DNA of 40,868 nucleotides. Origin: Candidatus Segetimicrobium genomatis (GTDB lineage Bacteria > Sysuimicrobiota > Sysuimicrobiia > Sysuimicrobiales > Kaftiobacteriaceae). The notes beneath the pieces are model-generated. The model had not been told where the DNA came from, searched no databases, and saw nothing but the letters and a program-made list of their open reading frames with translations. The stretch is from contig VBAL01000111.1 of assembly GCA_005888595.1 (NCBI GenBank), positions 9,450-50,317 on the forward strand, written 5' to 3'. Position 1 is the first letter of the stretch; every line of letters starts with the position of its first letter. Below are positions 5,282 to 38,491 of the stretch, piece after piece. The translations under genes were made by a program, and so were the position numbers.

Positions 5282-5402
5282 TAGTGAATAGTGAATCGTG
5301 AATAGTGAATAGGTTAGGACCTATCCGTTCCCCCGGCCGGCCTCGGATCCTCGGCAGCCGTTAGCTATTCACTATTCACCATTCACCATTCACTATTCAC
5401 TG
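5282..5402. repeat. Stutter hairpin 1 (7-nt unit GTGAATA), rimI-tsaD gap
   Basis: Left arm TAGTGAATAGTGAATCGTGAATAGTGAATAG (5282-5312); right arm CTATTCACTATTCACCATTCACCATTCACTATTCACTG (about 5365-5402). Confidence 0.95.
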
Positions 5403-5914
5403 TTCTGTTCGAGTTCCGCCCGCATCTTGGCCAGTTTCTGTTGATACTCCCGTTCCTGCAAATTTCCACTCCACATTACAATGGCGTCCTCGCGGTTGTC
5501 GCTGTAGTACCCTTTCCGGACGCCGATCTCTCGGAAGCCGTATTTCTTGTACAGCGTCTGCGCCGTGGCGTTCGACTGGCGCACTTCCAGAGTCATCCAG
5601 CGTGCGCCGCGTCCAAGGGCGGCGTCGATCAACCCCACCAACAGCCGTTCACCGACGTGCTGCCCGCGAAATGCGGGGTCCACCGCGATCGTGGTGATGT
5701 GCGCTTCATCGAGGATCACCCACATCCCGGCATAGCCCACGATCTCCGCGTCCGCCCGGGCGACGATGTATGCCGCCAGCCGGTTCTCGGTGAGTTCGTG
5801 CGTATAGGCGTCCCGTGGCCACGGCGTGCGGAACGACTCCCGCTCGATCTCCACCACGCGGGGAACGTCTTCCAACCGCATCGCTTCCAATGACACCCGT
5901 GTAATCTGCTTCAT
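5393..5914 (-). CDS. rimI: Ribosomal-protein-alanine N-acetyltransferase RimI
   Basis: GNAT fold sequence (RMEDVPRVVEIERESFRTPW-like), between tsaB and tsaD. Confidence 0.93.
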   Translation of the reverse strand: MKQITRVSLEAMRLEDVPRVVEIERESFRTPWPRDAYTHELTENRLAAYIVARADAEIVGYAGMWVILDEAHITTIAVDPAFRGQHVGERLLVGLIDAALGRGARWMTLEVRQSNATAQTLYKKYGFREIGVRKGYYSDNREDAIVMWSGNLQEREYQQKLAKMRAELEQNSE

Positions 5915-5917
5915 CGG

Positions 5918-6583
5918 CTAGGCTTGATCTACCGGCGCCCGCGCGTATATGGGCCAGAGCCGGTACAGATCATCCTGTTCGCCGCGGGCCAGCCGGTCCC
6001 ATCCTAGGCGTCCGACCGAGACCGCCGTCGGAGACCACTGCGCGCGCGGGGCCAGCACGGCATCGGGTCGCATCGCGGTGACCGCGTCCGCATACCTCGC
6101 CAGCGCGTCCCCGCTGAACGTCAGCGGCCCTGCCGGAAGCCGCTCCACGACGTGCGCGACCGGTCCGACGATGTCGTCCATGATCCTGTGGATCGAACCG
6201 TCGCGCGTATAGAGCGCACCCGCCACCTCCCCGCGGCGCACATCCAGCATCGCACACACCAGGCCGGCCGCGTGGGTGCCGAGGGCGACGGCGTCAAGCG
6301 TCGGGACGCCAGCCGCAGGAATCCCCTTCGCCCGGGCCCACGTGATCGCTGTGGCAATGCCGATGCGCAAACTCGTAAAGGATCCGGGACCCGTTGAGAC
6401 CGCCACTGCTTCCACCTGGGCCACTGTCCATCCGGTGGTCTCGAGTAGCTGCCGGAGCGCCGGGGCCAGCCACTCCAGGTGCCGCCGGGGGACGAACTCG
6501 GTGATCACAGCGACGGGATCGCCGTCCTGCAATAGCGCGACGCTGCCCAGGCTCGTCGCGGTCTCTATCGCGAGGATCCTCAT
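5918..6583 (-). CDS. tsaB: TsaB, t6A biosynthesis; start reset to MRILAIETATSLG
   Basis: MRILAIETATSLGSVALLQDG...STGPGSFTSLRIGIATA. Confidence 0.94.
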   Translation of the reverse strand: MRILAIETATSLGSVALLQDGDPVAVITEFVPRRHLEWLAPALRQLLETTGWTVAQVEAVAVSTGPGSFTSLRIGIATAITWARAKGIPAAGVPTLDAVALGTHAAGLVCAMLDVRRGEVAGALYTRDGSIHRIMDDIVGPVAHVVERLPAGPLTFSGDALARYADAVTAMRPDAVLAPRAQWSPTAVSVGRLGWDRLARGEQDDLYRLWPIYARAPVDQA

Positions 6584-6596
6584 TGATCTGCACGAC

Positions 6597-6665
6597 GTGA
6601 TTGGTGATTCGTCGATCTCCGGACTTTCGTGGGTTCGAATCACGAATCACAAATCACGAATCACG
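6597..6665. repeat. Stutter hairpin 2 (unit GTGATTC), tsaE-tsaB gap
   Basis: GTGATTGGTGATTCG ... CGAATCACGAATCACAAATCACGAATCACG. Confidence 0.92.
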
Positions 6666-7239
6666 CTTTTGTCAGTTTCTCGATAATCTCGACGTAGCGC
6701 GCTCCCTTCGGCGAAAAGGCCAGCTCGCGCGTGTCCTCACCGTTCATAAACCGAATGGTGATCCATAGATGTTCCGGGGGGAGCAGCGGTCGGGCTTTTT
6801 CCGCCCACTCCAGCACGACGATCCCGTTGCCGTCCAGAATCTCATCCAGCCCGAGGTCCTCGAGCTGCTGGGGACGGTCGAGCCGGTACAGGTCGGCGTG
6901 GTAGATGGTCACTGGACCGTGATATTCGCGCAGAAACGTGAACGTGGGGCTGGCGACATGACCGGCCGCACCGGCCCCCGCCGCAATCCCGCGGGCCAGA
7001 ACGGTCTTCCCGGCGCCGAGGTCTCCTGACAGCGCGATCACATCCCCGGCCCGCAGCAGGCCGCCCAGGCGGCGGCCCAGGGCCTCGGTTTCTTCAGGGG
7101 TCGCCGTGTGCAGGCGTAGTTCTAATGCGCGGCCCGAGACCGATTCGCGATCCGGGGTTCGAGGTTCGGGGTTCGGCAAAATCAGCCCCACTCCAGAGAG
7201 GGGCCGCGACCGCGCCTCAGCGCGCCAAGGGGCGGACAC
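6661..7239 (-). CDS. tsaE: TsaE ATPase, t6A biosynthesis; the true start is probably internal to the ORF
   Basis: Walker A LSGDLGAGKTVLARGIAAG, SPTFTFLREY, HADLYRLDRPQQLEDLGLDE. Confidence 0.94.
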   Translation of the reverse strand: MSAPWRAEARSRPLSGVGLILPNPEPRTPDRESVSGRALELRLHTATPEETEALGRRLGGLLRAGDVIALSGDLGAGKTVLARGIAAGAGAAGHVASPTFTFLREYHGPVTIYHADLYRLDRPQQLEDLGLDEILDGNGIVVLEWAEKARPLLPPEHLWITIRFMNGEDTRELAFSPKGARYVEIIEKLTKA

Positions 7240-8557
7240 GAAGGCGCAGACCCTCCACGCCGACGACCGTGACGCGATCGCCCTGCCGGATCGTCGCCTT
7301 ATCTTCTGCCTCAGCCGTCCACATCTCGCCCTGCGCGTAGACTATCCCCTCAGGATTCAAGTCAGTCCGGGCCACGCCGCTTGCGCCCGCCAAACCTTCC
7401 CGGCCGCTGCGGACCTTCGCGCGCTGCGCGCGCACGCCGGCGCCCACCGCGAACAGGAAGAACGCGCCCGTGAGCAGGGCCGTGAACGCGGCCAGCTTCA
7501 GCGACACCTGCAGGAACGGCGATTGCCGTTCGGTCAGCAGCAGCGCGCCAAAGAAAAACGCCAGGATGCCGCCGATGGTGAGCACCCCATGCCCCGGCAC
7601 CTTGAGATCAGCGATGAAAAACAGGACCGACAATGCGATCAGGGCCAGCCCCGCCACGTTGACCTGCAGGATGGCAAACGAAGCCAGCGCTAGAATCAAC
7701 GCGATCGCGCCGACCACCCCCGGCAGGATGGCGCCGGGATTGCCGAGCTCGAAGATAATCCCGTAGATGGCGATGGTCATCAAGATCAGCCCGACGTTGG
7801 GGTCACTGAGCAGGTCGAGCAAGCGCTCGCCGGGATCCATCGCGATGTTGCGCAGGACCGCGTGGCCGGTCGCCAGGCGCACCGGACCGGTTTCGGTCTC
7901 TACTTCACGGCCGTCAATCTTTCTGAGCAGATCCGGCACGTCCACCGCCACGAGATCGACGACGTTCAGCCTCACCGCCTCTTCTTCGTCGATGGACACG
8001 CTCTCGCGCACCGCCTTCTCGGCCCAGTCCGCATTCCGGCTGCGCCGGCGCGCGATGGCCCGAATGTTGGCCACGGCGTCGTTCGTGACCTTCTCCATCA
8101 TCGTCTGGTCCTGCTGGCCGCCCTGGCCCACGGACACAGGATGGGCCGCGCCCAGGTGCGTCGCCGGCGCCATCGCCGCAACGTGGGCCGCGTAGGTGAC
8201 AAAGACGCCTGCCGACGCCGCTCGCGCCCCTTTGGGGCTGATGTAGACGATGACCGGCACCCGGGCATTGAGCATGGCCTTCGTAATGTCATCCATGGAC
8301 TTGAGCAGCCCCCCGGGGGTGTCCAGCTCGATCAGCAACGCGGCGGCGTTCGACTCCTCGGCCTCGCGGATCGCGCGCTGGATGAAGCGGGCACTACTGG
8401 GCGCAATGATGCCCTCGACGCGAATACGAAACACCGTCGCCGCCTCGCCCGCTGCGGCGGCTGCGTCTCGGGCCAGCAGCGGGGCGGCACAGGCGACCAC
8501 CAGTGCGGCAAGGACCGCCGCGCCTCTCCACCACGGATTGTTACTGAATCTGGTCAT
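7217..8557 (-). CDS. NfeD-family membrane protein with N-terminal ClpP-class serine protease domain
   Basis: IEGIIAPSSARFIQRAIREAEE..., ELDTPGGLLKSMDDITKAML, GARAASAGVFVTYAAHVAAMAP, C-terminal TM region and OB-like tail. Confidence 0.9.
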   Translation of the reverse strand: MTRFSNNPWWRGAAVLAALVVACAAPLLARDAAAAAGEAATVFRIRVEGIIAPSSARFIQRAIREAEESNAAALLIELDTPGGLLKSMDDITKAMLNARVPVIVYISPKGARAASAGVFVTYAAHVAAMAPATHLGAAHPVSVGQGGQQDQTMMEKVTNDAVANIRAIARRRSRNADWAEKAVRESVSIDEEEAVRLNVVDLVAVDVPDLLRKIDGREVETETGPVRLATGHAVLRNIAMDPGERLLDLLSDPNVGLILMTIAIYGIIFELGNPGAILPGVVGAIALILALASFAILQVNVAGLALIALSVLFFIADLKVPGHGVLTIGGILAFFFGALLLTERQSPFLQVSLKLAAFTALLTGAFFLFAVGAGVRAQRAKVRSGREGLAGASGVARTDLNPEGIVYAQGEMWTAEAEDKATIRQGDRVTVVGVEGLRLRVRPLAR

Positions 8558-10268: not shown

Positions 10269-10330
10269 CCGTTTCCCCCTCTATGTGCCTGTTCATTCTA
10301 GCACGACCATTCGGGGGAGGATTCGAACTG

Positions 10331-10404
10331 CGTGATTCGTGATTCGACAAAACCACACTCTGCATTGCGAATCACGAATCACGAACCACGAGTCACGAAT
10401 CACC
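10331..10404. repeat. Stutter hairpin 3 (unit GTGATTC), downstream of the C26 peptidase gene
   Basis: CGTGATTCGTGATTCG ... CGAATCACGAATCACGAACCACGAGTCACGAATCACC. Confidence 0.92.
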
Positions 10405-11859: not shown

Positions 11860-11863
11860 GATC

Positions 11864-12868: not shown

Positions 12869-12873
12869 ACTTC

Positions 12874-13013
12874 GTGAATAGTGAATAGTGATTAGTGAAT
12901 AGTACCACCGTCGTATGCGTCTCTTCGGTATCGGACAGTCTCGTGCGTTCCATTGAGTCCGCCGTTCCTATTCACTATTCACTATTCACTATTCACCATT
13001 CACTATTTACTGG
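12874..13013. repeat. Stutter hairpin 4 (unit GTGAATA), pxpBC-desulfhydrase gap
   Basis: GTGAATAGTGAATAGTGATTAGTGAATAGTA ... CTATTCACTATTCACTATTCACTATTCACCATTCACTATTTACTGG. Confidence 0.95.
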
Positions 13014-15461: not shown

Positions 15462-15483
15462 GGTTCACCGAGAACTGCTGTCT

Positions 15484-16722: not shown

Positions 16723-16953
16723 CGTTTCGACGGGACCTGATGGCGCGCCTACTGACCACGCCCTGCACCGCAGGGAGGAGCGCGACGCGTGTAGTAATAC
16801 TGAGTCAGAACCTCCCTATCCCGCTGGTCAGGCTTCAACCATGCTGATGAAAAGCTATCGGTCCGCGAGGGAGATCACTCTTTCCTTGCGGGCGGAAGGA
16901 GGTGTCGGGAGTCTTTCGCAGTGCTGAGGCTACTTCTCCCAAGGAGGCACAAG

Positions 16954-18210
16954 ATGGTTCGGTACATTCGAGGGCTCACCGTGTTGAGCCTGTTGCTTGT
17001 CGTGGCGCTGGTGCCTGTCAGCCTGTCCGGCGCGGCTATGGGCGGCAAGTTGGAAATCTTTAGCTGGTGGACGGCCGGAGGCGAGGCCGAGGGGCTGTCG
17101 GGGATGTTCAGCGTCTATAAGAAACTCTACCCCGGCGTGGAGATCGTCAATGCGACGGTGGCCGGCGGCGCGGGGACAAACGCCAAGGCGGTGCTGGCAA
17201 CGCGCCTCACGGGCGGCGACCCGCCGGATTCGTTCCAGGTGCATGCGGGTCTGGAAGTCCAGAAATATGACCCCGCGGGGTTCCTCGATCCTCTGGACAC
17301 GATTTTCAAGTCCGAGGGGTGGGAGAAAGTCTTTCCCACTGGGCTCCTCACCCTGCTGCGATATCAGGGGCATTACTGGTCCGTGCCCGTAAACATCCAT
17401 CGGGCGAACGTCATGTGGTACAGCAAAAAGGTCTTTACCGCCAACTACCTCACGCCGCCGGTGACGTTCGATGAGTTCTTCAAGGTTGCCGACGCTCTCA
17501 AAGCCAAAGGCATCGTGCCCTTCGTCCTGGGAGACAAAGAAGGATGGGAAGCGGGGCATGCGTTTGAGGCGGTCTTGATCGGCACGCTGGGCGCGGATGC
17601 ATACCGCGGTCTGTGGACCGGCAAGACGCAGTGGACCGATGCGCGGGTCGCTCAGGCGCTCAACACGTTCAAGAGGATGCTCACGTATACGAACAGCGAT
17701 CATGCCGCGCTCACCTGGGACGGCGCCGGCCAGTATCTGATCGACGCCAAGGGCGCTATGGAAATCATGGGCGATTGGGAGAACGGCTGGTTCCAGTCAA
17801 AGAACTATGCCGATTACGGCTGGGCGCCCCCGCCGGGCAATACGGGTGTGTTTGACGCGCTCTCCGACTCGTTCTCCTTGCCCAAGAAGGCTCCCGACCG
17901 CGAGAACGCCATGAACTGGCTCAAGGTCGCCGGGTCCAAAGCGGGGCAGGAGGCCTTCAACCCCAAGAAGGGCTCCATCTGCGCCCGCACCGATTGCAAC
18001 CAGTCCTTGTTCAACCCCTACCTTCAGTCCGCGGCCAAGGACTGGCGCAGCAATGCGCTTGTCCCCAGCGTCATTCACGGCGCCGCGGCGTTTGAGAGCT
18101 GGGCGACCCAGTACAAAGATGCCCTGGCATTGTTCGTGACCAGCGGCGACGTGGCCAAGACGCAGGCCACTCTGCAGGCCGCGTGCAAGGACGCCGGCGT
18201 CTGCAAGTAG
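16954..18210 (+). CDS. Sugar ABC transporter substrate-binding protein
   Basis: Strong SD AAGGAGG; GGKLEIFSWWTAGGEAEGLSGMFSVYKKLYPGVEIVNA typical of glucose-type family 1 SBPs. Confidence 0.93.
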   Translation: MVRYIRGLTVLSLLLVVALVPVSLSGAAMGGKLEIFSWWTAGGEAEGLSGMFSVYKKLYPGVEIVNATVAGGAGTNAKAVLATRLTGGDPPDSFQVHAGLEVQKYDPAGFLDPLDTIFKSEGWEKVFPTGLLTLLRYQGHYWSVPVNIHRANVMWYSKKVFTANYLTPPVTFDEFFKVADALKAKGIVPFVLGDKEGWEAGHAFEAVLIGTLGADAYRGLWTGKTQWTDARVAQALNTFKRMLTYTNSDHAALTWDGAGQYLIDAKGAMEIMGDWENGWFQSKNYADYGWAPPPGNTGVFDALSDSFSLPKKAPDRENAMNWLKVAGSKAGQEAFNPKKGSICARTDCNQSLFNPYLQSAAKDWRSNALVPSVIHGAAAFESWATQYKDALALFVTSGDVAKTQATLQAACKDAGVCK

Positions 18211-18284
18211 ACTCTGTGTAACGGCCGGGCAGCGAGGCAGTCCGATCCTGGGCTGCCTCGCTGTGCACTTGGACGGAGACCCGA

Positions 18285-19247
18285 GTGGCACGCGAGACCG
18301 TTCCAGTCCAGATTCAGTCTGTCCCGGCTCCCCGCATTGCTTCGCGGCGGTGGCCCCCCAGCGCTGACCGGATCGCATCGGTCCTGCTGATTGCACCGTC
18401 GGTGCTGGCCATCGCGGTGTTCGTCTACGGGTTCATTGCCTTCACCGGGTTTGCCTCGCTCACGAAGTGGAATACCTTAAGACCCGACTTCACCTTTATC
18501 GGCCTAGCGAACTACGCCAGGCTGTTCTCCACCGTCCGTTTTCAGATTGACCTGCATAACACCGTGACGTTCACGATCCTGTTCCTGGTGCTCTGCCTGT
18601 CGCTGGGGTTTGGACTTGCCGTGCTGCTTGACCGCGGGGTCCGCGGCGAAGGGATCTTCCGCAGCATCTTCCTGTTCCCGCTGGCCCTATCGTTCATCGT
18701 CACCGGCGTGGTCTGGCGCTGGCTGCTCAACCCCGGAAGCGTCGAGTTGGGCAGCACGGGGGTGAACCAGCTGTTCGACAGAGCCGGGCTCGGCTTCCTG
18801 AAGTCTGGCTGGTACACGGACCCCGGCATCGGCATCAAGGCCGTGGTCGTGGCGGCCACCTGGCAGCTGTCGGGTTATGTGATGGCGATGTACCTGGCAG
18901 GCCTGCGGGGCATTCCCGAGGAGCTCCGTGAAGCCGCGCTCGTGGACGGCGCCAGCGAGGTGCAAATCTATCGCCACATCATCGTGCCTCTGCTCCATCC
19001 CATCACGCTGGGCGCGATCATCATCCTGGGCCACATCTCGCTGAAGATCTTCGATCTGGTCGTGGCAATGACGGGGCCCGGCCCGGGCTTTTCCTCCGAC
19101 GTGCCGGCCTTCTTCATGTTCGATACGACGTTCCGCGGCAACTACTTTGCCCAAGGGGCAGGCATCGCGGTGATCCTCCTGATCATGGTGGCCGTGCTCA
19201 TCATTCCTTACCTGGTTTTCAACCTGCGCACGGAGACGCAGCGATAG
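18285..19247 (+). CDS. Sugar ABC transporter permease (MalF/UgpA-like)
   Basis: [29 protein letters not shown] motif and TM segments. Confidence 0.93.
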
Positions 19248-20122: not shown

Positions 20123-20126
20123 CTGT

Positions 20127-20204
20127 GTCTACCTAGTCTTCCCAATCTACCTAGTCTTCCCGGTCTACCTAGTCTTCCTGGTCTACCTAGTCTTCCTGGT
20201 CTCC
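20127..20204. repeat. Left arm of stutter hairpin 5 (GTCTACCTAGTCTTCCYR)n, 18-nt dimer unit
   Basis: About four copies of GTCTACCTAGTCTTCC directly after the permease stop codon. Confidence 0.93.
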
Positions 20205-20396
20205 TTGCTTGATATCCATGAACCTCGATGAACTCACTGATCGTGCGCAGGCCGCGCGGATGCGCGACATCGTTCCCACCGATCGCGCATCAGCCGACGA
20301 ACACGAGGACTCGAGCGACATGCGGGCGGCTCGCGCGTAGCGCCTCGTCCGAGACCGTCGCTGCGTGCGAGGACACACTGAACCCTTGCGCCGAAG

Positions 20397-20570
20397 GCGC
20401 ACCACCGTACCGCGGGCCCCACCAGCCTAGCGATCCCCCGCGCACGAATCGACAGGGTCGTTAGGGCGCCGTGGTACGGCACGAATGCTACGTCAGATGG
20501 CCCGGTACGAGCCGTACCACCGCCTGAAGTTGGGAGGGGAACTACTTTAGGGGGTGGTACGGGGCGCCTC
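20397..20570. repeat. Cluster of GTAC-centred inverted repeats
   Basis: Perfect 10-bp inverted repeat GTGGTACGGC (20471-20480) / GCCGTACCAC (20511-20520), plus ACCGTACCGCG and GGTGGTACGGGG copies. Confidence 0.75.
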
Positions 20571-20612
20571 ATACGAATAGATGGAGAGACGTACGCCGCG
20601 ACTGCAGGACTA

Positions 20613-21332
20613 TTGGATCAGGCGTGGAAAATAGTTGTCGGCCACTCAACCGTTGTCGCTACCGAGGTGACGAAGATCAAATCCAAGCTTCTTCCCCGGT
20701 TAGCCGTCCTACTGGCTGTTGCGGTGGGGCTTACGGCGGTCGCAGTAACCCGCTCCATCGGACGCTTTCGGGAGCGCCCCCCCGTCACGACCCCACCCGC
20801 AACGGAGCCTCGGCAACCTCGCTCATCGAGTCAGCCTAATCCGTCTGCAGCCGCAGATCAGGCACAGCCAGCCTATACGGGAGTGCTGGGAGATTTCCTG
20901 GTGACTGCGAAGGTAGGCCAGGTTGCAGATTGGCCACCATGTCCCGAGCCGCGTAGACCGGCTCAGAATTATAAGGCCTCGGAGGTCTATTCCCCCGTCT
21001 TCGGCGATCTTGAAGTATACGAGTGTGCTGACGGCAAGATCATCGGTCTTTCGGTTTATGGGGACCCGAGCATTGGAAAACGCTACTTCGTTGGGCCAGC
21101 GAAAGTCAATTACTTCGCGCCATTAGATCGACTCGTGCTGTTGAAAGTAGCGGGTCGTCCCGCAATTGCACAACTGCCAGCACCGGGTGATCCAGAGGGC
21201 CTCCGTCTTGCGGTCATCCAACGGGTTCCCAGCAACAATCAGCCCGGCATTATGGTCTGGATTGACAACACCAGCAAAAGTGTGGCAGAAGCCGCAGCGC
21301 TGGCGGCAGAAATTATGGGGGTGCGACCATGA
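20613..21332 (+). CDS. Hypothetical membrane-anchored protein with a Pro/Ser linker; start may be an internal GTG
   Basis: TM segment LLPRLAVLLAVAVGLTAVAV, Pro/Ser-rich linker, C-terminal domain; overlaps the next ORF by ATGA. Confidence 0.6.
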   Translation: MDQAWKIVVGHSTVVATEVTKIKSKLLPRLAVLLAVAVGLTAVAVTRSIGRFRERPPVTTPPATEPRQPRSSSQPNPSAAADQAQPAYTGVLGDFLVTAKVGQVADWPPCPEPRRPAQNYKASEVYSPVFGDLEVYECADGKIIGLSVYGDPSIGKRYFVGPAKVNYFAPLDRLVLLKVAGRPAIAQLPAPGDPEGLRLAVIQRVPSNNQPGIMVWIDNTSKSVAEAAALAAEIMGVRP

Positions 21333-23023
21333 AAAGATTCTTGGTACTGATGACCGCAGTGTGCAGCGGGTTATCGCTCCCTCTGTTCGATCGTCCCGAG
21401 ATAGTGCAAGCTCAGACACCGCGTACGGACACAATCTACTTCATGGGCGCCACGCGAGGTAAGGACTACAATAATACGGGCGTTCTTTCATGGTGTGTCA
21501 GTCGGAGCTGGCATGAGAGCTATCCCAATGGTCCTGCGGATGCACTCGATGAGGTTGCACAGCAACAGGCGGTCCCAACACCCCCTCCCACTGATGACCA
21601 GTGGCCGGCGATTTGTAATAGTGATCCGACAGCGATCGACGGTTCCGGAAAGGTCGATCTTACAACCTACGGCGTTACGGGTCCGCTAGATTGCAGTTCG
21701 CCCTGCATTTCTTTAACCGTGAGAGGCAGATCTTTTGAGTACGGCGACGGCTGCGATTACATCGAGGCCGACCTTTACGATTTCGTCACTATGGACGACG
21801 GGCATAAAGTCGGTGAAAAGAAAGGGAAGCAGCGCATGATACATGCACTTGCACCTAATAGTACTAATGTCCCTTATGACCTGCCTTCCATACAAGTCAC
21901 ATCAACCGGATTGTACGCTAGCAATGAGATAGGGACACTACAAAATGACACCAATTGTAAACCCAATACTAACCCGCCTGGCTTTACACCAGGTGGTTAT
22001 CACGTCCACCATGACTTCATGCCACCGACGGGATCACAGTCTTGTTCGTGGAACCAAAACACTCCGGCGAACTTTCCTAGGCATATTACGGATCGGCAAA
22101 AACAGAATCCTTCCCACTGGGTGCATTTTGTGTCCCACAAACCTGGAGTGTCATGTTTTGCGGATGGGCCGCCAAAGTTGGCCGATAACTTGTTGGCATC
22201 GGACGGTGTGTTGGATGGAGACGGGAATGGTGGTGGGACCAGGGCGTTGGCAACAGGAGCACAATCTTCGCTCACGAGCCCGCAGACGTGCATTACAGGG
22301 ACGTCCTGGTGTGGAACAATCAGTGTGACTCCGCCTGTGGTGCAGGCGGCGTTTTCCAACTATTTGGGATTGTCGCCAACTGATTACTTGAGAGCGCAGC
22401 AGAAGCGTATTCCCCCCCGGGGGAGCACAACACCATACTATTGGTACGGTCCAGACAACGGAGGGTTCTATTTCTACGTGTTTTGGTGGATGACGTATCC
22501 GGACGGTAGTGGCTATTGGGACTGTGGCATGGGAGTACCAGGAGCAGAGAGGTATTGGGCGGGGTTTTCGAGTTGGACTGGTATTTATACTTGTCAGAAC
22601 GGGTTCATAAGCCTCGGCGGCGGTGGGGGGCCGGTGACCGCCATTGAAAATGAGTGGAGTCAGTTCCGGGGCTTGAATGGCATAAATCCGACAGCGCCGC
22701 CAACACAGCAAGACGCGAATACGTGGGCTCAGACTCAGATTGACAGTGGACACTGGGCGGATGTAGTGAAACCGGCTCTAGATGCGGTGATTCGTGCGGG
22801 GACGGGCAACATGGACATGGCGACGCTGGGGATTACGGGGGATCCTCCGTTTGATGGGGACCTCGGCCAGGTTGGGCTGGCGGGTGTAATGAACAGGATG
22901 AATACTGTAGCGTCGCGGGTTATGGACCTTCCGTTGTTTGATCCGACCCGAGCCGATATGAATCGTGATTGGATAGGTTCAACTCGCCCAAGGTGGAGTT
23001 TGACGGGAAAAGCTTTGAGGTAG
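21329..23023 (+). CDS. Hypothetical large secreted protein, Cys/Gly/Trp rich, no family recognised
   Basis: Signal-peptide-like N-terminus; 564-aa ORF; coupled (ATGA) to the upstream ORF. Confidence 0.7.
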   Translation: MKRFLVLMTAVCSGLSLPLFDRPEIVQAQTPRTDTIYFMGATRGKDYNNTGVLSWCVSRSWHESYPNGPADALDEVAQQQAVPTPPPTDDQWPAICNSDPTAIDGSGKVDLTTYGVTGPLDCSSPCISLTVRGRSFEYGDGCDYIEADLYDFVTMDDGHKVGEKKGKQRMIHALAPNSTNVPYDLPSIQVTSTGLYASNEIGTLQNDTNCKPNTNPPGFTPGGYHVHHDFMPPTGSQSCSWNQNTPANFPRHITDRQKQNPSHWVHFVSHKPGVSCFADGPPKLADNLLASDGVLDGDGNGGGTRALATGAQSSLTSPQTCITGTSWCGTISVTPPVVQAAFSNYLGLSPTDYLRAQQKRIPPRGSTTPYYWYGPDNGGFYFYVFWWMTYPDGSGYWDCGMGVPGAERYWAGFSSWTGIYTCQNGFISLGGGGGPVTAIENEWSQFRGLNGINPTAPPTQQDANTWAQTQIDSGHWADVVKPALDAVIRAGTGNMDMATLGITGDPPFDGDLGQVGLAGVMNRMNTVASRVMDLPLFDPTRADMNRDWIGSTRPRWSLTGKALR

Positions 23024-23241
23024 TTCTCAATCATAGAAGCTAGCCATGCGAACTATTGTTGAGCCGAGATTTCCCTGTGGGTCCGGCTGCTGCCTTCTCG
23101 CTAGCACAGGTGCTTTGACGGAATTCCCTTGGACTCCTTTCCTGATTCTAGATCCTGCTGCAATGAGAGATCGGAGTCGCCCCGCGCCAGTCAGCGCCGA
23201 TGTTCCCTCTTCAGGTCTTTGCTTTTCCGAACACCGACGCC

Positions 23242-23839
23242 TCAAGGTGCTGGCGGGATGATTTTGCCACGAGGACAGCCTCGCTGTAGGTCGCCGTGAC
23301 GTAACCTCACGTCGTCATCTGGCCAAAGGCGTTGGCCGATAGCGGTGGACCTTGTCCCACCGAAGGGCCAAAAACTCGTTGCCCTCCGGGTGAGTCCGGC
23401 GAGTATAGAATCCGCCACGGACCTGCCCGCCAAGTACAACACTCCCGCCCGCTTCCAAAGCGTCAGGACCTCGGCAGGGTCTTCGATGTCGACTGACTTA
23501 AAGACGGCCTGAGCAGCGGACCGTTCCACAAGAAGGACCTCGCCGCCCTTGGAGCTGGCTTGCCAGCGGCCGTGCACCGGCGCCTCCTCATCGCGGGCCG
23601 GATGCCCGATGAAGTGAAGGCCAGCGTGTTCGAGCGCCTGCAAGAACTCAATGAACCGGAGCGGGGGCCCCGCCACCGGCTCCATGCGCAGCCCCATCGC
23701 TCTTACCGCCGGTCGGGAGATCCGGACCCCAGTCCTTGACCGCGCGTGCCGTTGACACCCGTATCTCCGACGGAGGAACTTTCACGAATAGTTCCGCGAG
23801 CAGGCGCTGGATCTCGCTGGGAAGGCGCAACGCCGCCAT
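23242..23839 (-). pseudogene. Possible frameshifted remnant (ORFs 23648..23839 and 23242..23697)
   Basis: Two overlapping minus-strand ORFs in different frames, consecutive, both of plausible composition, neither with a recognised family. Confidence 0.25.
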
Positions 23840-23880
23840 CTTGCTAAACAGCAGGCAGGTAATTGCGCGCCCGTTCGCAG

Positions 23881-23913
23881 GGAGACTAGGAAGACTAGAT
23901 GGACGAGGTAGAC
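23881..23913. repeat. Right arm of stutter hairpin 5, about 3.7 kb from the left arm
   Basis: GGAGACTAGGAAGACTAGATGGACGAGGTAGAC; its reverse complement matches the apex-proximal left arm CTAGTCTTCCTGGTCTCC at 17/18. Confidence 0.85.
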
Positions 23914-23919
23914 AGTTCT

Positions 23920-26448: not shown

Positions 26449-26475
26449 CGGGATGGCCTTTGGCCCGCGCCGAAC

Positions 26476-27678
26476 ATGGCCGTGATGCCCGATCCGACGC
26501 GCTGGACGGCCGCGGTGGACCTGTTCACGCGGGTGTTCGACGCCCACACCACCCTCGTCGCCGGCGCGCCCGGCCGCGTAAACCTCATCGGCGAGCACAC
26601 GGACTACAACGACGGCCTGGTGTTGCCGGCCGCGATCGACCGTCACGTGTTCATCGCCGCCCGGCGAAACGACTCAGGTCGCGTGAGATTGGCGGCGAGC
26701 GCATTCGAGGACCGGGTGGAGTTCCCCACCGACGATCCCGGCCGGCCGGCTCTGCCGGTCTGGGCCCGGTATCCACAAGGCGTCGCCGTGAAGCTACGGG
26801 CCCGCGGCATCAGCATACACGGATTCGACGCGGCCATCGCCGCCGATCTGCCGGTCGGCTCAGGGCTCAGCTCGTCCGCCGCGCTGGAGGTGGCCTCGGC
26901 TCTGGTGATGGAAGCAATCAGCGACCACGCGCTTCCTCCGAGAGAACGCGCCCTGCTGTGCCGCGCCGCGGAGGTGGAGTTCGTCGGTGTGCCCTCTGGG
27001 ATTATGGACCAGTTCGCCTCCACATTGTGCCGGCGTGGCCATGCTTTGTTCCTCGACTGCCGCTCACTGGAAACACACCACATTCCATTAGGAGCGACGC
27101 TCGCCATCGCGGTCTGCGACACCGGGATGGCGCGCGTCCTGGCGGGATCGGCGTACGCGCAGCGCAGGCAGGAGTGCGCCGATGCCGTCACCGCGCTGCG
27201 GAAGGCAGGATTGAAGATTGCGTCGCTGCGGGATCTGACGCTAGATGACGTCCCACGTGTGGAGCGCCTGCCGGAACCGCTGCGGAGGCGCGCCAGGCAT
27301 GTCCTCACCGAGGATGCGCGGGTCGTGGAAACCGCGACACTTTTGGAAAGTGGGCAGCCCGGTGGGCTGCGGGACGTGTTCTCTGCATCTCACCGCAGCC
27401 TGCGCGACGACTACGAGGTAAGTTCTCGCGAGTTGGACGCCATGGCGGAGGCGGCCCTCGACGCGCCCGGCTGCGTGGCCGCCCGGATGACCGGCGCGGG
27501 ATTCGGCGGCGCAGTCGTCGCCCTGGTGCAACGCGCGGCCGGGGACGCGTTTCTCGCCGCGGCGGCGGAGGGTTACCGGAGACGCACGGGACGTGAAGGC
27601 CGATTGTTTCTCACAGAGGCGGCGGAGGGAGCGAAACTACTTGAAGGGCGGGACTCGGGACTGGGGACTGGGGACTAG
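26476..27678 (+). CDS. galK: Galactokinase
   Basis: GAPGRVNLIGEHTDYNDGLVLPAAIDRHV; LPVGSGLSSSAALEVA; RMTGAGFGGAVVALV. Confidence 0.97.
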   Translation: MAVMPDPTRWTAAVDLFTRVFDAHTTLVAGAPGRVNLIGEHTDYNDGLVLPAAIDRHVFIAARRNDSGRVRLAASAFEDRVEFPTDDPGRPALPVWARYPQGVAVKLRARGISIHGFDAAIAADLPVGSGLSSSAALEVASALVMEAISDHALPPRERALLCRAAEVEFVGVPSGIMDQFASTLCRRGHALFLDCRSLETHHIPLGATLAIAVCDTGMARVLAGSAYAQRRQECADAVTALRKAGLKIASLRDLTLDDVPRVERLPEPLRRRARHVLTEDARVVETATLLESGQPGGLRDVFSASHRSLRDDYEVSSRELDAMAEAALDAPGCVAARMTGAGFGGAVVALVQRAAGDAFLAAAAEGYRRRTGREGRLFLTEAAEGAKLLEGRDSGLGTGD

Positions 27679-27758
27679 AATTGTGAGGATCTTACCCGAG
27701 GTGATTGCTCGCACCAATCCCTAGTCCCAAGTCCCTAGTCCCAAGTCCCTAATCCCGC
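27650..27758. repeat. Stutter hairpin 6 (unit GGGACTN) between convergent galK and nnrD
   Basis: GGGACTCGGGACTGGGGACTGGGGACTAG ... CCAATCCCTAGTCCCAAGTCCCTAGTCCCAAGTCCCTAATCCCGC. Confidence 0.95.
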
Positions 27759-29314: not shown

Positions 29315-29359
29315 CTTAAGGTCGCCGCCTCTTTCCGCCAGGAGAATGACTCCTTCCCT

Positions 29360-29502
29360 AACTGCGTCTACAAAGTCTACCATGTCTCCTAGGTCTACAA
29401 GGTCTACTAGCATAAAGACATAAGTCGCAGTGCCTACGCGCGCGCAGAAAGGCGGGTAGACTTTGAAGACCTGGTAGACCTGGTAGACCTTGTAGACGCA
29501 GT
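29360..29502. repeat. Stutter hairpin 7 (9-nt unit GTCTACNNN)
   Basis: AACTGCGTCTACAAAGTCTACCATGTCTCCTAGGTCTACAAGGTCTACTAG ... GGTAGACTTTGAAGACCTGGTAGACCTGGTAGACCTTGTAGACGCAG. Confidence 0.95.
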
Positions 29503-29558
29503 TATGCAGTTATCCCCATCAAGCACACTGTCCACACGGTGTGAACGAAAGTTCCCGA

Positions 29559-29587
29559 TTGACCCGCTGAAGCCGCGATGATAACGT
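29559..29587 (+). promoter_or_regulatory. Candidate sigma70 promoter for the structured RNA
   Basis: TTGACC - 17 nt - TAACGT; predicted TSS falls about at the 5' edge of the closing stem. Confidence 0.45.
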
Positions 29588-29594
29588 CATGGTC

Positions 29595-29767
29595 GAGAGA
29601 GGCGCGAGCCTAGCGGCAAAATAGCCGATTCAAAAGCCGTCGCGCGTGGAGTCTGAGAGCCAGGGGAACTTCACTTCGGGAGTAATCCCGGAGAGGGGGC
29701 TTCAGGCGGTAAGACCCGGCGGCGCGGTAGAAGACGGTGAAACGTCGCTGGATCTTGCGCCTCTTTC
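29595..29767 (+). ncRNA. Candidate orphan structured RNA of unknown class
   Basis: 14-bp closing stem 29595-29608 / 29754-29767 (GAGAGAGGCGCGAG / CTTGCGCCTCTTTC); internal pairings GCCGTC/GACGGT and GTCTGAGAGCC/GGGCTTCAGGC; apical CTTCGGGA-GTAA-TCCCGGAG hairpin. Confidence 0.55.
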
Positions 29768-29785
29768 ACTTTGACAACGAAATAA

Positions 29786-29871
29786 CGCAGTCGAGCGGTC
29801 GCGGTAACTCCAAGGCGAGCGGTGCATGGCGAGACTGCGAGACTGCCCGACCGCCTGACTGCGCGACCGCG
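29786..29871. repeat. Stutter hairpin 8 (8-nt unit about GCAGTCNN), possible bidirectional terminator
   Basis: CGCAGTCGAGCGGTCGCGGT ... GCGAGACTGCGAGACTGCCCGACCGCCTGACTGCGCGACCGCG followed by TTTCTTATCTT. Confidence 0.7.
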
Positions 29872-29875
29872 TTTC

Positions 29876-30775: not shown

Positions 30776-30797
30776 TCGGATGACCTCCTCGAACGAG

Positions 30798-30959
30798 AAC
30801 TGCGTCTACAAAGTCTACTATGTCTACTACGTCTACTACGTCTACTGCGTCTACTAGGTCTACTAGGTCTACCAGGTCTTCAAGAGTCGGCTCGTAGACA
30901 TAGTAGACTCAGAAGACGTTGTAGACTTTGTAGACATCACTTTGGATCAAGTAGACGCC
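30798..30959. repeat. Stutter hairpin 9 (unit GTCTACNNN), glpD-garR gap
   Basis: About nine GTCTACNNN copies on the left (30800-30887); GTAGACNNN copies on the right (30893-30959). Confidence 0.96.
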
Positions 30960-30966
30960 TTTGGGA

Positions 30967-32637: not shown

Positions 32638-32639
32638 CT

Positions 32640-32736
32640 ACGTCTTCTTGGTCTACTGAGTCTCCCTGGTCTACTTGGTCTCCGTAACTCTTGCGGACTA
32701 AGTAGACTAAGAAGACCAAGTAGACTAAGGAGACGT
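32640..32736. repeat. Stutter hairpin 10 (unit GTCTACTTG/GTCTTCTTG), GDPD1-glpD gap
   Basis: ACGTCTTCTTGGTCTACTGAGTCTCCCTGGTCTACTTGGTCTCCGTAA ... GGACTAAGTAGACTAAGAAGACCAAGTAGACTAAGGAGACGT. Confidence 0.95.
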
Positions 32737-33459: not shown

Positions 33460-33484
33460 ACTTGCACTACAGAGAGTCCTTTTT

Positions 33485-33566
33485 CCGTCATTGCGAGGAG
33501 CGAAGCGACGAAGCAATCTCCTGCAGGAAGGAGATCGCCACGCCCCTGCGGGGCTCGCGATGACGG
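33485..33566. mobile_element. REP/MITE-like palindromic element, about 82 bp
   Basis: CCGTCATTGCGAG ... CTCGCGATGACGG terminal inverted repeat, with internal GGAGCGAAGCGACGAAGCAATCTCC; belongs to the widespread 'GTCATTGCGAGG..CGAAGCAATC' family. Confidence 0.8.
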
Positions 33567-33590
33567 ATCACCTGTTGTCTCCTGAGAACA

Positions 33591-34505: not shown

Positions 34506-35287
34506 CGCCGAAACCCCATCATCTCAATCCAGCCGAAGGACGCATCGGTCGGTCCGGAGGGTTTGTACTCGAGCCCGACGTAGCCCTCATAGCCCATCGC
34601 GTCCAGCTGCTTAAGCACATACGGAAAGTTGATCTCGCCCGTGCCGGGTTCATGCCGGTCCGGAGAGTCGGCCACCTGCACGTGGCCGAGGCGTTCCCGC
34701 AGCCGCGCCATGGTGTGAACCAGATTTCCCTCCATGCGCTGCATGTGGTAGATGTCGTACTGAATCCGGGCGTTCGGCGCCCCGACATCATCCAGCAACC
34801 GCACCGCCTGCGCAGAGGTCGACAGGAAGAAACCCGCGATATCGTAGGTATTGATTGGCTCTACCAGCAGGGTGATCCCCTGCGACACCAATTGTCCGGC
34901 CGCGTAGCGGAGGTTGTCCACCAGGCACCGCCACTGCTCCTCGTATGCGAGGTGTTCGTCGCGCTTACCGACCAGACAGTTCACGCGCCGGCAACGGTAC
35001 CGCCGGGCCAGCTCCAGTGCCTGCCCTACTCCCCGGCGGAACTCTTCCCGGCGGCCAGGATGCACAGCCACTCCGCGATCTCCGGCCGCCCAGTCACCGG
35101 CCGGGAGGTTAAAGAGCACTTGTTCCAGCTTCAGACGATCCAGCGCCCGCGCAATGCCGTCGGTGTCTTCCTGATAGGGGAACATGTACTCCACCGCGCG
35201 GAAGCCATTGCGGGCGGCGGCGTCAAACCGCTCCAGGAAGGGCAGGTCACCGAACAGCATCGTGAGATTGGCAGCGAATTTTGGCAT
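34502..35287 (-). CDS. Hydroxypyruvate isomerase-like TIM-barrel protein
   Basis: MPKFAANLTMLFGDLPFLERFDAAARNGFRAVEYMFPYQED; RIQYDIYHMQRMEGNL; GYEGYVGLEYKPSG, all Hyi-like. Confidence 0.9.
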   Translation of the reverse strand: MPKFAANLTMLFGDLPFLERFDAAARNGFRAVEYMFPYQEDTDGIARALDRLKLEQVLFNLPAGDWAAGDRGVAVHPGRREEFRRGVGQALELARRYRCRRVNCLVGKRDEHLAYEEQWRCLVDNLRYAAGQLVSQGITLLVEPINTYDIAGFFLSTSAQAVRLLDDVGAPNARIQYDIYHMQRMEGNLVHTMARLRERLGHVQVADSPDRHEPGTGEINFPYVLKQLDAMGYEGYVGLEYKPSGPTDASFGWIEMMGFRR

Positions 35288-35297
35288 GCACCCTCCT

Positions 35298-36497
35298 TCA
35301 GATCGGCGTCCGGGCAGCCGGCGCCAGTCGCGCGTACTGCGGCAGCGGGCCGACCAGCGGCCGGATATAGTCCATATACGCGGAGGTGACATCGTAACCG
35401 GAGGGAGCGATGAACTCCTCCGGCACGCGGCGGATGTCCCCTACCACCCGGTCCAGCGGCACCGCGCCGGTCGTACTCCGATAGACCGGACCCCGCTCGC
35501 GAACGAGCGTCATCATCGTGCCGCCGCGTCCGGCCACCGCCTCGCGCACCGCCGCCTGTCCGACCCGGTAGGCTTCCTCGGCATCCACACGAGAGGACAG
35601 GAGGGCAGAGACGCGCTGCATCGTACCGGGCTTGTCGAACCGGGCCTTGATCTGCAGATGCGTCATCACCAGATCGCACAGCACCGCGCCGACGCCGCCG
35701 AACTGTGGCCGCCCCAGCGGATCGGCTTCGACGGGTCGCTGAGATGCCGCCAGGAACTGCCCGCGCTCATCGACCAGCCCTTCGGCGGCCGCGATGAGCA
35801 CATGCCCGCGCTCGCGATGGACGCGTTCCACGTCGGCGAGGAATCGCTGCCTGACAAACGGACGCTCCGGCAGATAGATCAAGTGCGGCGCGTCACCCTC
35901 TCGCTGGCGCGCCAGCGCCGTACTGGCCGCCACCCACCCGGTGTGACGGCCCATCGTCTCGACCACCTTCACCGGATCGGCCGTGCCGATGGCTTCGGTG
36001 TCAAGCCCCGCTTCGCGGACCGATACCGCCAGCCATCGCGCCACGCTGGGATGCCCGGGGCAGTGATCAGTCTCGACCAGGTCGTTGTCGATTGTTTTGG
36101 GAATCGCGATGACCCACAGGTCGTACCGCAGGTCCGCCGCCCGGCGATGCAGCCTGAGCGCCGTCGCCGCAGACCCGTTCCCCCCGATATAAAGGAAGTA
36201 CCGGATGCCGCGGGCCTGGAAGATACGCATGATCCGGTCCACGTCGTCATCGCCCAGACCCGCCCGGGAGGTGCCTAATGCCGCCGACGGGGTGCGGCGC
36301 AGTTCCTCCAGCATTTCGGAGGACACGCGGCGCAGGTCGACCAGGTCTTCCCGTAGGAGTCCCAGCACTCCGAACCGCATGCCGTAGATCTCGCCGATCG
36401 CGTCGTGACGCAGGGCCTCCTGGATTACGGCCACCAGGCTGGCATTGACCACGGCGGTAGGACCGCCGGATTGACCGACAATAAGGTTCCCGCGCAT
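35298..36497 (-). CDS. 6-phosphofructokinase family, probably PPi-dependent type
   Basis: NLIVGQSGGPTAVVNASLVAV; YIGGNGSAATALRL; PKTIDNDLVETDHCPG; start ATG overlaps the upstream stop (TGATG). Confidence 0.9.
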   Translation of the reverse strand: MRGNLIVGQSGGPTAVVNASLVAVIQEALRHDAIGEIYGMRFGVLGLLREDLVDLRRVSSEMLEELRRTPSAALGTSRAGLGDDDVDRIMRIFQARGIRYFLYIGGNGSAATALRLHRRAADLRYDLWVIAIPKTIDNDLVETDHCPGHPSVARWLAVSVREAGLDTEAIGTADPVKVVETMGRHTGWVAASTALARQREGDAPHLIYLPERPFVRQRFLADVERVHRERGHVLIAAAEGLVDERGQFLAASQRPVEADPLGRPQFGGVGAVLCDLVMTHLQIKARFDKPGTMQRVSALLSSRVDAEEAYRVGQAAVREAVAGRGGTMMTLVRERGPVYRSTTGAVPLDRVVGDIRRVPEEFIAPSGYDVTSAYMDYIRPLVGPLPQYARLAPAARTPI

Positions 36498-37303
36498 CAC
36501 GCGCTCAACAGCGGACGCAGGTGAGCAATCGCCTGCCGGGCCGCACTTACCGGATCCGGACGCGGCAGGATTTCTGCCGACAGGTACCCCGTATATCCGA
36601 GCTCTCTCAACACGCGGACCAGCGCAGGGAAATCTAGGTGTCCCCACCCGGGGGCATGGCGATTACTGTCTGCGACATGCACATGGCGGAGGCGCGGTCG
36701 GGCGCGGCGGAGACTGCTCTCGATCGACGCCTCTTCGATGTTCATATGGAAGGTGTCCGCGAGGATCCCCAACGCTGGCGAGGCCAGCCGGTTGATGAGA
36801 TCGAGCACTTCATCCATGGTGACGAGGAAGTCGGTCTCGTACCGATTCACTGGCTCGAACACAACAGGAATCTTTTCCCGCTCGGCGAGGGGAAGGATCC
36901 GGCGCAGGGCACCGCTCAGCCGTGCCTCCGTCGCGGCGCGGTCTCCGGTGATCCGCCCCCGTAGCAGGCCCACGATCACCGCCGCGCCAAATACCGTCGC
37001 TATGCGAATGTGTGTCTCCAATCGTTCGATGGCGCGCGCACGGATGCCTTCGTCGGGGTGTGAGAGGCTCAAGCCATCTTTGAGATACGCCTGGCCCGTT
37101 CCGATGGCCGGAACCGCGAGCCCTGCGTCGCGCACCGTCCGCAGCACCGCCTCAGCGTCGACCTGCGAGGGATCGCGCACGGCCAGCTCGACCCCGTCAT
37201 AACCCAGGTCCGCCGCCGTGCGCAGGGCCTCTCGCCATGATCCGCGCATCGCCACCGCGTCGAAACCGGTCTCTTCGAGCGAGACGACGAGGCTCAGCTT
37301 CAC
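36497..37303 (-). CDS. Sugar phosphate isomerase/epimerase (AP_endonuc_2 TIM barrel)
   Basis: LGYDGVELAVRDPSQVDAEAV; PVVFEPVNRYETDFL; ILADTFHMNIEEASIESSLRRA; HVHVADSNRHAPGWGHLDF. Confidence 0.92.
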   Translation of the reverse strand: MKLSLVVSLEETGFDAVAMRGSWREALRTAADLGYDGVELAVRDPSQVDAEAVLRTVRDAGLAVPAIGTGQAYLKDGLSLSHPDEGIRARAIERLETHIRIATVFGAAVIVGLLRGRITGDRAATEARLSGALRRILPLAEREKIPVVFEPVNRYETDFLVTMDEVLDLINRLASPALGILADTFHMNIEEASIESSLRRARPRLRHVHVADSNRHAPGWGHLDFPALVRVLRELGYTGYLSAEILPRPDPVSAARQAIAHLRPLLSA

Positions 37304-37314
37304 GGAAAGCTACG

Positions 37315-37400
37315 CCACCAGGGCACCAGGGAACCAGGGGAACCATGCCTGCATGTGACTGTGGCACGCGGTACCTTGGTTCCCTGGTCCCTTGGTCCCG
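37315..37400. repeat. Stutter hairpin 11 (unit about CCAGGGN)
   Basis: CCACCAGGGCACCAGGGAACCAGGGGAACC ... GGTACCTTGGTTCCCTGGTCCCTTGGTCCCG. Confidence 0.92.
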
Positions 37401-37413
37401 CCGTTGTCTTCAA

Positions 37414-38379
37414 TCAAGGTGGCCACCCCAAACTGTACAGGCTCTTGCCGCCACGGGCGGGTCCCTTCAGGACGGCCTCCAGTTCTTCCTTGTCACGCTC
37501 GGTGACCAGCTCCATCGGCGGTAGCTTCCCCGGCGGGAACGTCTTGATGACGTCGGTGACGAGCCGCTCGATGTAGTCCAGCAAAGCCTCCACCCCGGGG
37601 AGCGCCTTCTCGGCCTTCGCCAGCGACGGCTTGCCAACCACGCCTTCGATATACGCCTTGACCTCGATAGGGCCGGCTCCGATGTGGCCGTACCAGTTGA
37701 TGGGGCGGCGAAGCAGGTTGCCGGCTTTGTCCACATGGCCCTCCGGCAGGAAACCGAACGGGTTGTTGTCCACGGCCCACTCCTGTTTCATCAGCTCGGG
37801 GAACAACGCCAGGCACCAGGAGGTCTCGACCTCATCGGCATGGATGAACGGCGTCTCATACGGGCCACCCTGGGCCTTAAGTTTGAAGTGATCCTGAACG
37901 GCATGGTACCAGTTCAGGTTGATAACCAGTGCCGGCACCCGGTAGCGCTTGCCAAACTGATGGATGGCGGTGGGAATCACGTACTCCTGTCCGTGACCAT
38001 TCAGCAGGATCTGTTTCCGGAAGCCCATGTTCCAGAATCCGGCGATCATGGCCCGCAGGAAGCCCGTAAAGACCTCCTCCGGGATCACCACCGTGCTCGG
38101 CATGCCGAGATGATGATACGGATGCGATCCCCACCACAGCGGTTCGGAGACGGTACATCCCGTGCGCTCTGCCACCGCCTCCGCCATCCGCGTCACCAGG
38201 AAGATATCCTCACCAATCGGCGCATTGGGCCCATGCGCTTCCGTCGCACCGAGGGGCACGATCAGGACGTCGTTGGTTTTCAGACGTTCCTCAATGTCGC
38301 GCATCGTCATCGTTTGCAGATAGACGCCGGTGCGCTTGTCCATGTGACCGCCCTTCGGCGGCAAACTCCACTTCGCCAT
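37414..38379 (-). CDS. Creatininase-family hydrolase
   Basis: VLIVPLGATEAHGPNAPIGEDIFLVTRMAEAVAERT; LLNGHGQE; MPSTVVIPEEVF. Confidence 0.88.
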   Translation of the reverse strand: MAKWSLPPKGGHMDKRTGVYLQTMTMRDIEERLKTNDVLIVPLGATEAHGPNAPIGEDIFLVTRMAEAVAERTGCTVSEPLWWGSHPYHHLGMPSTVVIPEEVFTGFLRAMIAGFWNMGFRKQILLNGHGQEYVIPTAIHQFGKRYRVPALVINLNWYHAVQDHFKLKAQGGPYETPFIHADEVETSWCLALFPELMKQEWAVDNNPFGFLPEGHVDKAGNLLRRPINWYGHIGAGPIEVKAYIEGVVGKPSLAKAEKALPGVEALLDYIERLVTDVIKTFPPGKLPPMELVTERDKEELEAVLKGPARGGKSLYSLGWPP

Positions 38380-38395
38380 TGCTAACCTCCTCTGA

Positions 38396-38491
38396 GTGAT
38401 TAGTGATTCGTGATTAGTGATTCGTAAATTCGCGAAATCAAGTAACCGACGCGCCTCCCAAGATCTTGCGAATCACGAATCACTAATCACG
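38396..38491. repeat. Stutter hairpin 12 (unit GTGATTA/GTGATTC)
   Basis: GTGATTAGTGATTCGTGATTAGTGATTCG ... GCGAATCACGAATCACTAATCACG. Confidence 0.95.

Follow-up and report, generated by a model that had tools for sequence, protein, structure and literature searches.

Intergenic hairpins built from short tandem arrays are replaced in place between closely related Sysuimicrobiota genomes

In a 40,868-nt stretch of the Candidatus Segetimicrobium genomatis genome (Sysuimicrobiota; contig VBAL01000111.1, positions 9,450 to 50,317; hereafter the window, numbered from its first letter), we investigated intergenic hairpins whose two arms are degenerate tandem arrays of 7-9 nt units on either side of a non-repetitive loop. 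Comparison with related genomes showed that they belong to a dispersed population of several unit families with a common anatomy, and that a hairpin at a given site can be exchanged for one with another unit and an unrelated loop. We propose that the elements form a population resembling repetitive extragenic palindromes (REPs), whose members are broken and rebuilt in place at the same site, and put the probability of this reading at roughly 0.4.

Within the window, a strict detector (arms of at least 14 nt, at least 80% complementary, each arm periodic, loop of at most 200 nt) identified ten loci, at 5282, 6596, 10331, 12874, 27650, 29359, 30820, 32660, 37317 and 38396, compared with none in 20 dinucleotide shuffles of the window (ten global and ten local). 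Other inverted-repeat and tandem-repeat searches likewise recovered the structures listed for the window, and the predicted RNA folds of nine tested strict loci reached z scores of -2.9 to -9.0 against shuffles. An earlier note on this DNA had named twelve hairpin places. The ten strict loci bear it out; 29786-29871, however, is a degenerate octamer array (GCGAGACT/GCAGTCNN) with a weak hairpin that fails the strict detector (fold z -2.0), and the pairing of 20127-20204 with 23881-23913 gave way to two convergent arrays 3.7 kb apart.

The source genome (G000) is a 2.94-Mb draft of 325 contigs, of which 310 kb of stretches were sampled; all its densities and gap counts refer to these. They contain 78 elements (0.25 per kb), and roughly 700 would be expected in the whole genome, possibly an overestimate, as the stretches were partly chosen for matches. 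The density was similar in G001 (0.24 per kb, in stretches selected by synteny to those of G000) and amounted to 0.17 in G002 and G004, where stretches were also picked partly for array matches and values may be somewhat high, and to 0.075 in G007. Two sister species are thus alike in density, while some other genera of the family have essentially no hairpins: a few were seen in G005, and essentially none beyond chance GC-rich palindromes in G003, G006 and G008. We also counted two patterns, three units in a row, across whole genomes of the order. Triple GTGAWTM occurred 93, 46, 59, 21 and 1 times in G000, G001, G002, G004 and G007, and never in 36 other genomes of the order or in the reversed control. 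For triple GTCTWCNNN the counts in these genomes were, respectively, 148, 126, 175, 8 and 33; G012 had 18 and a single other genome had one. The earlier note had considered that the arrays might be assembly artefacts, confined to the window or no more frequent than in shuffled sequence. The shuffles and the wider sample speak against the latter two, and because the same arrays lie at orthologous places of independent genomes, the hairpins are confirmed as real and not as products of assembly.

The arms draw on a limited repertoire. At least 12, and about 12-13, unit families were recognised among the 78 elements: the 7-mers GTGAATA/GTGATTC, GGGACTN, CAGTCNG, ATTGNGR, GCAGAAC, GATCCTG and AGGGAAG, the 8-mers CGTTGAAN/AGTTGGAN, GGTCGNGC and ACCAGGGA, and the 9-mers GTCTWCNNN, TTGAATCTA and CGTCTNTTG. 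Heptamers prevail (41/68 N-free loci in the stretches outside the window), with 8- and 9-mers occurring as well. Even within the window, five loci use GTGAWTM and four GTCTWCNNN, which disagrees with the initial impression of a different unit at each locus. Polarity is nearly invariant: with both strands searched independently for arrays, neighbouring arrays of one family formed 128 convergent pairs and 2 divergent ones. The outer ends carry a motif of the form AACTRC...GYAGTT that is common to several families. AACTRC abuts the outer side in 41/347 array starts versus 1/347 inner ends, and it occurs in the GGGAYTN, GTCTWCNNN and GTGAWTM families, that is, with both 7-mer and 9-mer units. Given this shared repertoire, fixed polarity and terminal motif, the units are not arbitrary, as had first been supposed. 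The two arms of one element also match in detail, since the variable NNN positions of the 9-mers agree better within an element (2.34) than across different elements of one genome (1.82; p<=0.0005). A test of own versus other arm complementarity was dropped as uninformative, because detection itself requires complementarity; the NNN test is free of this fault.

Replacement was followed at orthologous sites. In G001, 67 of the 78 sites were comparable, with a flank identity of ~95%, and were assigned by reading to approximate classes: ~23 have the same hairpin, ~7 keep the unit around an unrelated loop, ~27 have a hairpin or half hairpin of another unit (related or unrelated) with an unrelated loop, and ~10 are empty or hold remnants. 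Some changes recur. Four CGTTGAAN sites of G000 correspond to AGTTGGAN in G001, and GGGACT or GGGACC sites to GGGATT/GGGATC; others shift the period, from GTGATTC to a 9-mer at L113:16053 and from ATTGCGG to an 8-mer at L115:6361. A three-way comparison covered 59 sites, with G002 as outgroup. At window 27649, L106:2370 and L113:7875, G000 and G002 have a loop in common (z 15.1, 13.0 and 6.6), whereas G001 carries another unit and another loop, so that the outgroup shows true replacement at three sites. At L103:3137 the loop alone was replaced. Ten further sites show replacement at the unit level, with G001 the odd one out in six and G000 in four, and loop homology is retained in all three genomes in four hairpins. 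Orthologous sites of sister species thus support the idea of a lineage-specific process that keeps the architecture while the sequence changes. At equal flank identity, hairpin gaps are 61% identical compared with 84% for hairpin-free co-directional gaps, and in-place swapping accounts for the much quicker divergence of these gaps compared with neighbouring ones.

If the elements moved as units, their loops should recur. Loops are 6-172 nt long; none of 30 searched in the whole 2.94-Mb genome had a second copy, and the likeness between loops was no greater than in shuffles. Unrelated loops are evidence against whole-element copying, and we rejected whole-element transposition on these grounds. 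As a separate observation, one GTCTAC hairpin of G001 is duplicated head to tail with its loop and flanks (L194:14132 and L194:14271), corresponding to a single copy at L107:12685 in G000.

The main rival nevertheless concerns mobility, namely that the hairpins are non-autonomous elements resembling REPINs (REP doublets forming hairpins) or miniature inverted-repeat transposable elements (MITEs), moved by a transposase such as the REP-associated tyrosine transposase (RAYT; Y1_Tnp domain), with the arms as recognised ends and a variable loop. The shared AACTRC/GYAGTT termini and head-to-head symmetry, a position at stop codons as known from REPs (PMC3733652) and the co-occurrence of Y1_Tnp with hairpins within the family would all suit such an origin. 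Copies of an element should, however, keep their spacer, and none of the 30 loops searched was found twice. The transposase also fails to track the hairpins in the order: two Y1_Tnp genes are present in each of G000-G002, yet G012 has nine-mer arrays and no Y1_Tnp, while G011, G025, G026, G028, G031 and G037 have Y1_Tnp and neither of the tested array patterns. No such hairpin lies near either Y1_Tnp locus of G000, nor near 7/8 of those examined in the family. RAYT is accordingly disfavoured as the mover, and we consider a mobile origin rather unlikely overall. Were it true, the element would be one with a non-inherited spacer.

The earlier note had named slippage plus template switching as one possible process. 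In such a model arbitrary seeds at each site expand locally and quasi-palindrome correction creates the second arm. Degenerate arrays, copy numbers that differ between species and concordant arms within one element are compatible with such a process, as is an apparent gain at L106:6682, where the empty G002 gap already contains ACAATT, close to the unit found there. Independent local origins, however, predict neither about 12 recurring families nor a polarity of 128:2 nor a terminal motif that crosses unit periods. Dispersed families, fixed polarity and shared termini thus argue against independent slippage; a purely local version is insufficient to account for them, and we regard this already disfavoured explanation as improbable.

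The location of the hairpins, analysed with gene calls from a simple codon-usage gene caller, bears on a possible role in RNA. In G000, 65/241 co-directional, 6/15 convergent and 0/19 divergent gaps are occupied. Among gaps >60 nt in four genomes, occupancy was 187/432 for co-directional, 18/42 for convergent and 8/73 for divergent gaps (co-directional vs divergent, p=2.5e-8). Most gaps longer than about 60 nt had been said to hold exactly one hairpin; this describes the window (~12 of roughly 19, as assigned by reading) and not the 310-kb sample (71/175), and the narrower statement that no gap holds more than one is correct for G000, where two in one gap were never seen. The hairpins sit close behind genes, the median distance from the stop codon being ~2 nt for G000 and ~5 nt for the other genomes; the stop codon often falls within the array, and the next start follows after ~21-25 nt. 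When the hairpin is subtracted, a median of 28 nt remains in the G000 gaps, an operon-like spacing, and most hairpins lie in such short gaps between co-directional genes.

This slot, behind a stop codon and ahead of the following ribosome-binding site, with at most one element per G000 gap and few in divergent gaps, would fit functional RNA elements (mRNA stabilisers, attenuators or operon-internal processing signals) selected as hairpins of any sequence, replacement being selected compensation after loss. Strong predicted folds point the same way, as does the slower change of arms than of loops in retained hairpins (4.2% vs 12.2%). However, 26 changed paired sites in retained hairpins include 20 that break the pair and 1 compensatory change, and with compensation almost nil, structural selection on these hairpins is disfavoured. 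A T tract is lacking, many orthologous gaps are simply empty in relatives, and members of the same family live without hairpins. We consider this explanation unlikely as well.

Intrinsic terminators, the structure-selected alternative raised at first, are least convincing and very improbable. Large hairpins at 3' ends and the occupied convergent gaps could suggest them; on the other hand, 0/65 hairpins reach six T within the 10 nt that follow, terminator scans of the window picked out none of the hairpins, and short operon-like gaps between co-directional genes are the usual setting. With no T tract directly behind the hairpin, the elements are not intrinsic terminators; the mostly uncompensated changes at paired sites also speak against terminators selected for their structure. 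Separately, at L113:330 and its G001 ortholog the loops hold differing GC-rich stems and then T-rich sequence, and by their sequence look like intrinsic terminators framed by arrays.

The preferred reading, rebuilding at the same site, starts from a general plan that may be written AACTRC-(unit of 7-9 nt)n-unique loop-(unit')n-GYAGTT, lying after a stop codon and before the next ribosome-binding region. From this anatomy and the observed replacement we infer a cycle of break, copying and end joining. The long inverted repeat would break, as a cruciform or at a stalled replication fork; through slippage or invasion, both broken ends would then copy one and the same short unit from homologous arrays at other loci and grow again; and the ends would be joined, the Ku pathway being one candidate, with a new non-repetitive loop between them. 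Two 3' ends growing towards each other would yield the fixed convergent polarity, and extending both with one unit before joining would account at once for the convergence of the arrays, the agreement of the arms and the new loop. Selection would then purge insertions from coding, promoter and ribosome-binding sequences, so that the slot behind the stop codon remains, where the hairpin, once transcribed, may act on messages in the manner of a REP, stabilising them or keeping them apart. Since replacement occurs in the same place, the existing hairpin would itself be the site of repeated loss and rebuilding. If this model is true, it adds a new way in which bacteria generate intergenic structure.

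Several points weigh against rebuilding. Ku was found in 11/11 genomes, equally in hairpin-free relatives; it therefore does not explain the distribution and was rejected as a distinguishing factor. The searches of the genome returned no loop copies as a source of new loops, and neither a broken intermediate nor an empty-to-full event was seen at nucleotide resolution. The terminal motif common to several families could just as well be the signature of a transposable element, and divergent alleles imported by recombination are a possible route of replacement. A variant in which repeats are templated by a reverse transcriptase or a telomerase-type enzyme was rejected, as RVT_1 (PF00078) is absent from G000, G001 and G002 (genomes 88-93% complete), all hairpin-rich. 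That a dedicated enzyme system other than a reverse transcriptase adds templated 7-9 nt repeats to both broken 3' ends before end joining appears highly improbable; the hairpin would then be a scar built like two telomeres fused head to head, with changes of template behind the different unit families.

The window itself is ordinary chromosome, with tsaD/tsaB/tsaE-like genes, an ATP-dependent DNA ligase, a carboxyltransferase and genes of ABC sugar transport, glycerol and sugar metabolism. For one protein of this genome the closest named relatives, at 59% identity, come from Armatimonadetes/CSP1-3 genomes (Candidatus Sysuimicrobiota). A GTGAATA hairpin at 5282..5405 (arms 5282-5312 and 5365-5405), which has the strongest fold (z -9.0), lies next to the tsaD-like gene (4231-5277, minus strand); its site is occupied in G001 and G004 and holds none in G002, G006 and G007. 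The GTGATTC hairpin at 6596..6665, found by the strict detector and by folding, corresponds to a gap of merely 7 nt in G002. Another of this family at 10331..10403, with AACTGC in front, is missing in G001 and found in G002, and the strict GTGAATA hairpin at 12874..13011 is matched in the orthologous gap by GTGATTC in G002 and GGGATAA in G007. The GGGACTN hairpin at 27649..27756 ends in CCC-GCAGTT and overlaps the end of a GHMP kinase open reading frame (ORF; 26476-27678); its loop is the same in G002, while G001 has GGGATT/GGGATC arms around an unrelated loop. Three hairpins belong to the 9-mer GTCTWCNNN family. The one at 29359..29504, with terminal TAACTGC...GCAGTTA, is the same in G001 and faces another GTCTAC hairpin in G002; 30804..30937, again strict and folded, has AACTGC in front; and 32640..32734, with NNN mostly TTR/CTG and AACTAC in front, has a loop type that recurs at the G002 ortholog. 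The strict ACCAGGGA octamer hairpin at 37316..37399 is the same in G001 and missing from G002, G004 and G007. A GTGATTM hairpin at 38395..38490 is followed by GTAGT; GTGATTM is also present in G002, and a CAGTAGC-type hairpin in G001 (flank identity 97/90%).

The unpaired nine-mer arrays comprise a plus-strand GTCTWCCNA array of ~8 units without a local inverted partner (20127..20202) and, 3.7 kb off, a degenerate convergent array on the minus strand (23879..23913) with a CTA variant in common. They edge 20123-23919, 3.7 kb of weak coding signal whose ORFs gave no Pfam or PADLOC matches and which may have been inserted into what was once a loop. A second dispersed repeat, GTCATTGCGAGG..GCAATCTCC..CGCGATGAC, has a copy at 33483-33568 and many in G001, G002, G004 and G007, and is found also within some hairpin loops. 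Between the YjeF-like and 3-hydroxyisobutyrate dehydrogenase-like genes, 29524-29742 (plus strand) is a candidate conserved structured RNA, 90% identical to G002 (coding flanks ~80%) and present in G001, G004, G006 and G007 too; its predicted consensus fold has -72 kcal/mol and 7 pairs with both sides changed, and it has no Rfam match even at E<=1. A non-periodic hairpin at 18210-18285 (GGCAGCGAGGCAG..CTGCCTCGCTG) between transporter genes is strongly conserved in G001 and G002. In the gap behind an HD/GGDEF gene, 4150-4195 carries TTATACACATTATCCACAGG, kept in G002 and G006, which we take to resemble DnaA boxes.

Among known systems, the 7-9 nt units without spacers are distinct from the 21-40 nt direct repeats and unique spacers of similar length that define clustered regularly interspaced short palindromic repeats (CRISPR), as the earlier note had stated. 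Whole-element copies with target-site duplication, as expected of MITEs, were not found: none of the 30 loops searched had a second copy in the genome, and the empty sites examined showed no clear target duplication. REPs and REPINs are closer, being dispersed extragenic hairpin-forming doublets with a GTAG/GYAG tag outside and a less conserved spacer (PMC3733652, PMC3116915), and REPs also supply stop codons and lie near 3' ends (PMC3733652). The present hairpins share this placement, extragenic, near 3' ends and in unidirectional and convergent gaps, and a GYAG-like tag stands at a minority of their ends. REP bodies, however, are single self-palindromic sequences of 20-40 nt with one consensus (PMC3733652, PMC3116915), a stem of 5-13 bp and a GTAG/CGTC tag, whereas here two arms, each a tandem array from one of many families, pair with each other, the loops bear no relation to one another and the presence of RAYT does not follow the elements in the order.

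Tandem heptamers at many intergenic loci also recall short tandemly repeated sequences, with nearly all neighbouring arrays here being convergent pairs. The degenerate arrays of GGGAATC in Xanthomonas and GGGGA(C/T)T in Nostoc lie between aligned ORFs near stop codons and are scarce between divergent ORFs; the former often form convergent inverted pairs (70 cases in Xcc, 75 in Xac). They consist of one G-rich unit, discussed as G-quadruplexes, and are usually conserved in place between species (83%; PMC4692102), while the present units are exchanged at their sites and are for the most part not G-rich. The TAACTGA repeats of Beggiatoaceae and others, in distant phyla, are likewise intergenic heptamer arrays recurring across one genome, but as direct arrays upstream of start codons that are almost never inverted (PMC4679880). 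In Geobacter metallireducens, the paired sites Gmet_I1-I3, described as "putative global regulator binding sites", consist of GTTGCTYN octamers, TCTCCGTS[Y] 8-9-mers and MTYCTGA heptamers in tens of copies; they are absent from the sister species G. sulfurreducens and are interpreted as protein binding sites, with IHF/HU suggested (PMC2700814). By the text of that article, the likeness extends to pairs of tandem arrays on opposite strands, at variable distance and with several unit classes per genome; the part of it consulted reports no turnover, stop-codon anchoring or terminal motif, and gives tens of copies against ~12 families and hundreds of copies here. The swap itself is known from the P6b stem of the Nostoc trnL group I intron, with 7-nt repeats on both sides, where one repeat class was repeatedly and independently replaced by another in place while the structure was kept, at a single intron locus, with two classes and replacement reported one-way (PMC4476775); here it is genome-wide, among many classes and in both directions.

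Precedents for the architecture and even for the swap thus exist, scattered over Geobacter, Xanthomonas and the Nostoc trnL P6b stem. No description for Sysuimicrobiota was found in the literature searched, most subscription literature lying outside that search. What is new is how many families one genome holds and on what scale, that they share termini, how strict the polarity is, and that replacement between close species occurs across the genome. Convergent heptamer-type arrays have so far been filed piecemeal, as binding sites, G-quadruplexes or intron variation; one lineage in which many unit families share anatomy, position and polarity and are swapped in place points to one process with testable rules.

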